From contig CAMDNW010000001.1 of assembly GCA_945903275.1 (NCBI GenBank), positions 62,001-126,000 of the forward strand: a DNA stretch of 64,000 bases, written 5' to 3'. The notes below the pieces were generated by a model that was not told the origin of the DNA, searched no databases, and saw only the letters and a program-made list of their open reading frames with translations. How positions within the stretch are numbered: the stretch's first letter is position 1; each line of letters starts with the position of its first letter. The stretch comes from Thermoflexus hugenholtzii JAD2. Lineage in GTDB: Bacteria > Chloroflexota > Dehalococcoidia > UBA2979. The position numbers were made by a program, and so were the translations under genes. Shown here in pieces: positions 60,284 through 61,835 of this stretch.

Positions 60284-60360
60284 GGCGCGTTCGTCTAGTG
60301 GCCCAGGACATCGCCCTCTCAAGGCGGAGATCGCGGGTTCGAATCCCGCACGCGCTACCA
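60284..60360 (+). tRNA. tRNA-Glu (anticodon CUC)
   Basis: Acceptor GGCGCGT (60284-60290) pairs with ACGCGCT (60350-60356, one G-U at the end). D-stem GTCT/GGAC, anticodon stem TCGCC/GGCGG with loop CTCTCAA (anticodon CTC at 60318-60320), T-stem GCGGG/CCCGC with TTCGAAT. Discriminator A and encoded CCA (60358-60360). Confidence 0.95.
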
Positions 60361-60384: not shown

Positions 60385-60582
60385 ATGACGACTTCTGACC
60401 CGAAAGAGACCTATCGCGAGGCGTACGTCGACTGGCAGGCCCAGCTTGCCAAACTCCACGCGTTCTTTCTCGATGGTCAGCGCATCCCGCCGCAGGAGAT
60501 CAAAGGCCTGCTGAACCGTGAGGCCCGAGCCAAGTCCCGCTATGACGAGGCTCGCCGCCGTCTCCTTGGTATCGAGGAATAA
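60385..60582 (+). CDS. Small hypothetical protein, 65 aa
   Basis: Short soluble, charged, probably all-helical protein (MTTSDPKETYREAYVDWQAQ, LHAFFLDGQRIPPQEIKGLL, EARAKSRYDEARRRLLGIEE). It resembles small helical-hairpin proteins with no assigned function. Start placed at ATG 60385, 6 nt after TACACT; the longer frame from 60298 lies inside the tRNA gene. It is 3 bp upstream of the CcdA-like gene, so the two are likely co-transcribed. Confidence 0.65.
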   Translation: MTTSDPKETYREAYVDWQAQLAKLHAFFLDGQRIPPQEIKGLLNREARAKSRYDEARRRLLGIEE

Positions 60583-60585
60583 CGA

Positions 60586-61344
60586 ATGCGATCAGGGGCG
60601 CCTCGTGCAGCACTACTGGGCGCAACCTTTGCCGCTGCATGGTCGCCCTGCATCGGCCCGATCCTCGGGGCAGTTCTAGCGATGGCGGCCGCCTCGGGAA
60701 CGGCGGCGCAGGGCGGGCTGCTGCTCGCGGCGTACTCGCTCGGCCTTGGCCTCTGGTTCCTTGCCTTCGGCATGTGCTTTGGATGGCTTGCCCCGCGGCT
60801 CCGGCAGGCGCAGCCGTACCTGCCCGTGTTGATGACGGTCTGCGGCGCGCTCTTCATCTTGGTCGGGGCCGCAATGTTCCTCGGTGAGTTCGGGCGGCTC
60901 AATCGCACGTTTCAGTCGCTCGGCTTCTGGTTCGGGGCGACATCGGACGCCGAGGTGCGCCTAGCCGGTGGGACCGCCGGGTTGCTCGGCCCCGCCGTCG
61001 CATGTTTTGGCGGTGTCGTCTCATTCCTCTCGCCCTGCGTGCTGCCCCTCGTCCCTGTCTATCTCGCCGACCTCGCTGGCGAGGCGGCTGTGGCGAGCGG
61101 TGAGGTGGCCAGTCGGGGGCGGCTGCTCATTCACTCCGCCGCGTTCGTGCTCGGATTCACGGCGGTGTTCGCGCTGCTCGGCGTGTCAGCGGGACTGCTC
61201 GGCAGCGTGCTGCTAGACCGGCTTGACCTCGTCACACGGGTGGGTGGATTGGTGCTGATCCTCCTCGGGCTCCACATGAGCGGCCTTATCCATGTGCCAT
61301 ATCTCGAACGCACGTACCAATTGCCGCCGCCGGCCCGCCGGTAG
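60586..61344 (+). CDS. CcdA-family thiol-disulfide membrane protein with halves in reversed order (circular permutation)
   Basis: 252-aa membrane protein with six hydrophobic segments. Canonical CcdA begins with a three-TM half containing FLSPCVLPLVP and ends with a three-TM half containing FAxGWTPCIGPIL. Here the second type comes first: FAAAWSPCIGPILGAVLAMA (Cys22) followed by LLLAAYSLGLGLWFLAFG, and the first type comes last: VSFLSPCVLPLVPVYLADLA (Cys151), FVLGFTAVFALLGVSAGLLG and VLILLGLHMSGLIHVPYLER. Joining its end to its beginning recreates the standard order. Both redox Cys are present, so it could still pass electrons from cytoplasmic thioredoxin outward. Start ATG 60586; no alternative N-terminus lies upstream. 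Confidence 0.85.
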   Translation: MRSGAPRAALLGATFAAAWSPCIGPILGAVLAMAAASGTAAQGGLLLAAYSLGLGLWFLAFGMCFGWLAPRLRQAQPYLPVLMTVCGALFILVGAAMFLGEFGRLNRTFQSLGFWFGATSDAEVRLAGGTAGLLGPAVACFGGVVSFLSPCVLPLVPVYLADLAGEAAVASGEVASRGRLLIHSAAFVLGFTAVFALLGVSAGLLGSVLLDRLDLVTRVGGLVLILLGLHMSGLIHVPYLERTYQLPPPARR

Positions 61345-61385: not shown

Positions 61386-61835
61386 ATGGCTGAGTCAGAC
61401 TTCGGCGTTGATATCGAGGAGATGGGTCGCGTCTTCGACGAGGCGGACGTGATCGTCCTCCGCTTCCATGTGATCGCTCAGCGCCTCTTGCTCGATATGC
61501 GCGCTGCCCCCAGCGATCTGCCACTGATCCGCCTTGTCCCGCCCGTGAACAACGCTGAGGAGCGTTACCGCTACCTCGAACGCGAGCGCCCGGGTATGCC
61601 ACTGCCGGATCAGATCACCGTTGTCGGCTGGCCACGCTACGTGCAGGTGATGCAGGACACGGGCCTCTGGCAACGCATCACCGACCGGCTGCTGCGCCAG
61701 GGTGGCCCCGATATGCAGCAATACTGCGACGAGGCTTACCGCGAAGTGCGCGCCGCCGAGCGTGCCGAGGTCGCCGCTGCCATCCGTGGCGGCGAAGGCT
61801 ACGAGTCGCTCTGGGAGCGGGTTGCATCGCGCTGA
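61386..61835 (+). CDS. Hypothetical protein, 149 aa
   Basis: Soluble protein without signal peptide that I cannot assign. Features: FGVDIEEMGRVFDEADVIVL, an ARLV-type beta strand (FHVIAQRLLLDMRA), LPLIRLVPPVNNAEERYRYL, a QITVVGWPRYVQVM segment and a helical Glu/Arg-rich C-terminus. The composition matches neighbouring genes, so it looks native rather than acquired. ATG 61386 has a -10 box 6 nt upstream and no Shine-Dalgarno. Followed after 5 bp by a lipoprotein gene. Confidence 0.65.
   Translation: MAESDFGVDIEEMGRVFDEADVIVLRFHVIAQRLLLDMRAAPSDLPLIRLVPPVNNAEERYRYLERERPGMPLPDQITVVGWPRYVQVMQDTGLWQRITDRLLRQGGPDMQQYCDEAYREVRAAERAEVAAAIRGGEGYESLWERVASR

Follow-up and report, generated by a model that had tools for sequence, protein, structure and literature searches.

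A circularly permuted CcdA with exchanged halves and a second helix order in related Chloroflexota

Results and Discussion

An open reading frame encodes CcdA with its halves in swapped order

The open reading frame at 60586..61344 of the window, i.e., of the whole analysed stretch of 64,000 nucleotides, encodes a CcdA protein with its two halves in swapped order. It is a circularly permuted derivative and not a canonical member of the family. The first-pass annotation had described both pseudo-repeats of CcdA in this frame, with the C half first and the N half last, and the profile match obtained here showed exactly these two pieces in exchanged positions. New beyond this annotation are the family-wide occurrence of the permuted order, a second permutation in relatives, and probably more than one permutation event. 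The term P3 was used throughout for the helix order TM4-5-6-1-2-3 of the window, the term P1 for the order TM2-3-4-5-6-1. The features of the locus are as follows.

60284-60360: tRNA-Glu gene, preceding the 65-aa gene
60385..60582, + strand: small conserved gene upstream of ccdA, 65 aa, no Pfam or NCBIfam match above cut-off
60586..61344, + strand: circularly permuted CcdA, order TM4-5-6-1-2-3 (P3), 252 aa, ATG start, from profile and Pfam mapping
60601..60921, + strand: canonical C-terminal half (TM4-TM5-TM6), now N-terminal, canonical CcdA profile positions 129-236
60649..60651, + strand: codon of Cys22 in WSPCIGPIL (canonical TM4 cysteine), invariant
60922..60984, + strand: new linker leading from the old C terminus (TM6) to the old N terminus (TM1), predicted periplasmic
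60985..61323, + strand: canonical N-terminal half (TM1-TM2-TM3), now C-terminal, canonical profile positions 14-121, PF02683 positions 8-102
61036..61038, + strand: codon of Cys151 in SPCVLPLVP (canonical TM1 cysteine), invariant
61386..61835, + strand: conserved downstream gene, 149 aa, no known family, syntenic partner

Residues 6-112 of the protein correspond to the canonical C-terminal half (TM4-6, motif WSPCIGPIL) and residues 134-246 to the canonical N-terminal half (TM1-3, motif SFLSPCVLPLVP). Hydropathy, Lys/Arg distribution and predicted helices revealed six helices arranged as two inverted three-helix repeats. When 11 divergent permuted proteins were aligned, the two cysteines, the prolines flanking them and one Glu of the linker proved invariant. 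The linker is acidic and poor in Lys and Arg in the family of the window.

Profile scores were compared for the native protein and for a rotated version, in which residues 125-252 were placed ahead of residues 1-124. In the native order, positions 8-102 of the DsbD_TM profile (PF02683) matched residues 140-236, i.e., the N half, and positions 119-196 of the DsbD_2 profile matched residues 6-93, i.e., the C half. Upon rotation the DsbD_TM match, split into two stretches in the native order, became one stretch covering positions 8-211 of 219, and the scores rose from 63.3 to 73.7 bits for DsbD_TM (cut-off 27.1) and from 26.2 to 42.4 for DsbD_2. Using a canonical CcdA profile, built from the relatives L034-L061 and one other, two domains were obtained for the native protein, positions 129-236 (100.8 bits) first and positions 14-121 (120.0 bits) thereafter, versus a single domain from 14 to 236 with 228.0 bits for the rotated one. 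The earlier proposal that placing the end before the start restores the usual order was borne out by this end-to-end alignment. Within the permuted set the best domain gained a median of ~110 bits on rotation, and 27 canonical proteins treated in the same way as a control lost a median of 139 bits. A profile of the permuted proteins aligned with the solved CcdA structure 5VKV, its top PDB sequence match, in two blocks of swapped order. Pseudo-symmetry of the halves is no explanation for the swapped order, since each of them scored on the profile part corresponding to it.

The swapped order occurs throughout the family of the window

Within the family of the window (f1, 44 genomes from 17 genera) 38 genomes gave a match, one of these being a fragment and 37 showing the swapped order. 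In all 37 genomes, which were assembled separately, both halves were located within one open frame. The public MAGs L033 and L062 also carry the swapped order. The latter is RH-chloro-G1, the type of Candidatus Bathosphaera prima, and belongs to the JG30-KF-CM66 cluster near SAR202 and Dehalococcoidia; its CcdA has the same sequence as the one encoded by G008, which belongs to the genus of the window. The window thus most likely stems from a Bathosphaera-like genome of the Chloroflexota. The remaining 28 relatives found across bacteria have the canonical order. Open frames extended upstream in relatives (up to ~390 aa) contained no third half, and the profile detected only one C half and one N half. 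One genome of the family (G019) encodes an extra canonical CcdA with a thioredoxin-like N-terminal extension, possibly a TlpA-CcdA fusion (L065, L095, L096).

It is very improbable that the halves represent the ordinary inverted repeat of the LysE/DsbD superfamily, with an order that is merely apparent as N and C halves are homologous. The halves of CcdA are indeed pseudo-symmetric, and MAFFT placed C halves on the N half in one alignment. Nevertheless, the matches fall on half-specific profile positions, the motifs SPCVLPLVP and WSPCIGPIL differ, and the large score change on rotation had the opposite direction in the canonical controls; half-specific scores and controls together led to the rejection of this explanation. 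Even less credit can be given to an assembly or binning artefact in which two ccdA fragments were joined in the wrong order. The genome of the window is a 29-contig assembly, however, the same order in one open frame recurred in 37 of the 44 family genomes and in two public MAGs, and the linker is conserved including its invariant Glu. Misassembly and a gene-split error were rejected on the basis of these independent genomes. The same order in related genomes, a check suggested in the first-pass annotation, excludes misassembly.

Topology of the permuted protein and a second permutation

In canonical relatives a mean of 2.7 Lys/Arg was counted for loop 1-2, 2.75 for loop 3-4 and 3.7 for loop 5-6, versus 1.0 for loop 2-3 and 0.3 for loop 4-5. 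According to this distribution, loops 1-2, 3-4 and 5-6 face the inside and the termini of canonical proteins the outside. The canonical topology used here is based on these counts and on a review (PMC7329351).

The distribution of the helix orders was obtained from class-wide and phylum-wide searches with subsequent domain mapping. Outside the family of the window, P3 was found in f66 (six genomes), f50 (G110) and f31 (G073). The order P1, which maps with canonical profile positions ~50-235 first and 9-48 last, was detected in at least nine other Chloroflexota families (f20, f5, f90, f107, f108, f137, f140, f146, f147) and is rare elsewhere (loci L125-L132, L134, L136, L138-L159, L183, L184). 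Several of the P1 genomes consist of a single contig (G316, G411, G495, G607). Both permuted orders share the same TM6-linker-TM1 fusion. A profile of this junction, applied with a threshold of E below 1e-16, detected 20 of the 301 genomes of Chloroflexota, one of 296 genomes in the G658 phylum (Actinomycetota), one of 249 in the G666 phylum (Clostridiaceae) and none of 249 in the G663 phylum (Kaistia, Alphaproteobacteria), with a lower sensitivity in other phyla as the profile was made from Chloroflexota sequences. Both hits outside Chloroflexota were P1.

The P1 cut is located in loop 1-2 and the P3 cut in loop 3-4, both predicted to be cytoplasmic, and a cut in loop 5-6 was not seen among the permuted CcdA proteins mapped. 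The linker of P1 and P3 contains 0.6-0.9 Lys/Arg and 2.5-2.9 Asp/Glu. With cytoplasmic cuts and a periplasmic linker, each helix can keep its orientation and both new termini come to lie in the cytoplasm. By their residue composition, the cut and joined loops follow the positive-inside rule, with a linker predicted to be periplasmic. The initial assumption of three helices per half with a preserved topology fits the end-to-end alignment of the rotated protein and the Lys/Arg counts, which put the new linker outside.

In P1 proteins of f137 and f147 (L138, L143), TM3 and TM4 are separated by a long hydrophobic insert, which probably represents extra helices. The canonical CcdA of f33 (L170, L171) carries a hydrophobic N-terminal extension and an insert in its N half, again probably extra helices.

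Gene neighbourhood

The stop codon of the 65-aa gene and the start of ccdA are separated by 3 nt. Small genes of 65-75 aa with the core motif KGLLNREARAKERYDEARR were found in five families of the class (L121 5937-6164; L177 4820-5002). They lie ahead of P3 ccdA in the families f1 and f66 and ahead of canonical ccdA in f16, f33 and f25, and their product is possibly an unrecognised CcdA accessory protein. The 149-aa gene is located downstream of the permuted ccdA throughout f1 and downstream of a canonical ccdA in f25 (L177), where the block of small gene, canonical ccdA and downstream gene matches the block of the window. As a canonical ccdA occupies the same neighbourhood in a sister family, the change of order took place at an orthologous locus, and the permuted form seems to have originated there. 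Concerning the history of the gene, we regard synteny as stronger evidence than the tree tests.

Structure model and predicted role in cytochrome c maturation

An AlphaFold2 model of the window protein, calculated with an alignment containing correctly placed C-half fragments, reached a pLDDT of 77 and a pTM of 0.73; an earlier model from an alignment of N halves only had yielded 64 and 0.42, respectively. The structural modelling recommended at the outset returned the CcdA structure 5VKV as top and only stand-out PDB fold match with a probability of 0.90 (others listed ≤0.13). The corresponding TM-score of 0.44-0.48 (E 0.24) is modest, as was to be expected of a sequential aligner, which cannot properly score a permuted chain, and the match gives weak support for an O-shaped scaffold like that of 5VKV. 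Canonical CcdA consists of six helices in two inverted repeats, of which TM1 and TM4 may move as an elevator with the cysteine pair (PMC7329351). In the permuted protein the fold would stay that of two inverted three-helix repeats, with the cysteines of TM1 and TM4 paired.

The permuted ccdA is the only DsbD_TM gene in the genome of the window and is not adjacent to ccm genes. A cluster on contig C8 (L193, G000:C8:40000-56500) encodes a CcmG-like thioredoxin, CcmE, CcmF, CcmB, a CcmC-like protein, COX15/CtaA, an ABC ATPase in the CcmA position, Cox1, and Cox2 with a cytochrome c domain. The CcmG-like protein of this cluster is the candidate for a periplasmic thioredoxin-like partner. Since the only DsbD_TM gene and the Ccm cluster are found in the same genome, reduction of CcmG for cytochrome c maturation is the most likely role of the window CcdA, as far as can be deduced from gene content. 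Electrons would pass from cytoplasmic thioredoxin via the permuted CcdA to the periplasmic thioredoxin-like CcmG, which would keep apocytochrome c reduced. Overall, we are highly confident that the circularly permuted gene encodes a functional CcdA, with CcmG as the putative partner and electron transfer as the predicted activity.

Evolutionary history of the permutation

A tree of 84 re-ordered proteins, with which a quick tree of 89 agrees, requires eight transitions between the three orders, and permuted forms fall among canonical ones more than once in the trees. A single clade of all P3 proteins was rejected (AU p 0.0035), the reason being that the protein of f31 groups with canonical L164 of family f68 (62.7% identity over 228 aa, support 99/94). 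P3 without f31 as one clade was not rejected (AU p 0.54), and the rejection of one clade for all P1 proteins was weaker (p 0.029). As the groups were tested after the tree had been seen and the f31 case is one genome, we call it likely, not proven, that the permutation arose more than once.

The linker provided additional indications for its origin. In the canonical protein L164, SLINLNQYFNF is located close to the C end and LAGLAIAFGAGLLSVLSPC close to the N end; the protein L124 contains SLINLNSYFTF...GPLGLAIAFAAGLVSVVSPC, resembling the C tail and the N leader of L164. Several linkers of f66 end with LTGPFGF, comparable to the N leader YLTGPFGI of canonical L135. Judged by these motifs, the linker resembles the C-terminal tail of a canonical protein continuing directly into a canonical N-terminal leader, a make-up fitting tandem duplication, fusion and trimming. 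In an ancestor of the window's family a canonical ccdA (TM1-6) would most likely have been duplicated in tandem and fused as N1-C1-N2-C2. Trimming of the outer halves would have left C1-N2, the old C and N termini would have become the periplasmic linker, and the new termini would have been placed in the cytoplasmic TM3-TM4 loop with all helix orientations kept. The same route, a tandem duplication with loss of N1 and C2, had been put forward in the first-pass annotation; the linker agrees with it, while no tandem, double-length or 12-helix CcdA intermediate was present in any of the loci searched, and we infer this step.

A different history, in which a single ancestral fused double CcdA gave rise to every permuted form by different trimming (P1, P3, canonical) and not by separate permutation events, appears rather unlikely to us. 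The shared TM6-linker-TM1 fusion of P1 and P3 and the clade of P3 without f31, which was not rejected, speak for it. However, the clade of all P3 proteins was rejected, that of all P1 proteins less firmly, the f31 protein pairs with a canonical one at the identity given above, and a double-length form was missing from the loci searched. We rather favour, with some reservation, that CcdA of Chloroflexota was permuted repeatedly and in place at two different cytoplasmic loops (P1, P3) with the same periplasmic fusion, which would provide a natural series of coexisting canonical and permuted orthologues of a polytopic helical membrane protein; new termini were found only where both ends are cytoplasmic and never in a periplasmic loop. 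It is improbable that the permuted protein has lost its function as a thiol electron carrier and was recruited elsewhere, for example together with its two unnamed neighbours. Its gene adjoins these two conserved, function-unassigned genes rather than ccm genes, nevertheless, the catalytic Cys residues and the Pro residues flanking them are invariant, the neighbours also accompany canonical ccdA in sister families, and the genome needs a CcmG reductant without having another DsbD_TM gene.

Comparison with known systems

The permuted CcdA represents a rare natural case of a many-helix membrane protein cut and re-joined in evolution, apparently still working as far as can be judged from its sequence. 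This natural permutation is fixed throughout a family of uncultured Chloroflexota; canonical orthologues are available from the same locus, and relatives show a second order. With such matched natural pairs, questions on membrane insertion, on the placement of termini and on the evolution of inverted repeats can be tested directly. Caution is required since profile searches break permuted genes into partial matches. The first-pass annotation knew of no described permuted CcdA, and our literature search, conducted largely without subscription journals, found no paper linking CcdA, DsbD or cytochrome c biogenesis to circular permutation of the protein.

The protein shares with CcdA (PF02683; 5VKV) the two three-helix inverted repeats, the cysteines of TM1 and TM4, the size, and Pfam matches of both halves. 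It differs in the order TM4-5-6-1-2-3, in the fusion of the old termini by a linker of ~20-35 residues, and in new termini predicted to be cytoplasmic. With the membrane domain of DsbD (DsbD-beta) and ScsB it has the kind of transmembrane electron carrier and the cysteine motifs in common (NCBIfam PRK00293, weak match). DsbD possesses periplasmic alpha and gamma domains, whereas the window protein is permuted and lacks both. Transporters of the LysE superfamily are not known to have a redox cysteine pair. This superfamily (RhtB, NicO, TerC, others) was grouped with the DsbD family by sequence statistics (PMC4608589), and the main text of that paper makes no mention of permutation. Rearrangements of helix order in membrane transporters were proposed for the topological isomers PnuC/SWEET and for the ZIP fold (PMC7162841, PMC13192868). 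Those cases were deduced from deep relationships, either between families or inside an ancestral repeat. In contrast, canonical and permuted CcdA orthologues coexist, with identities reaching 63%, and in other families they occupy the same locus.
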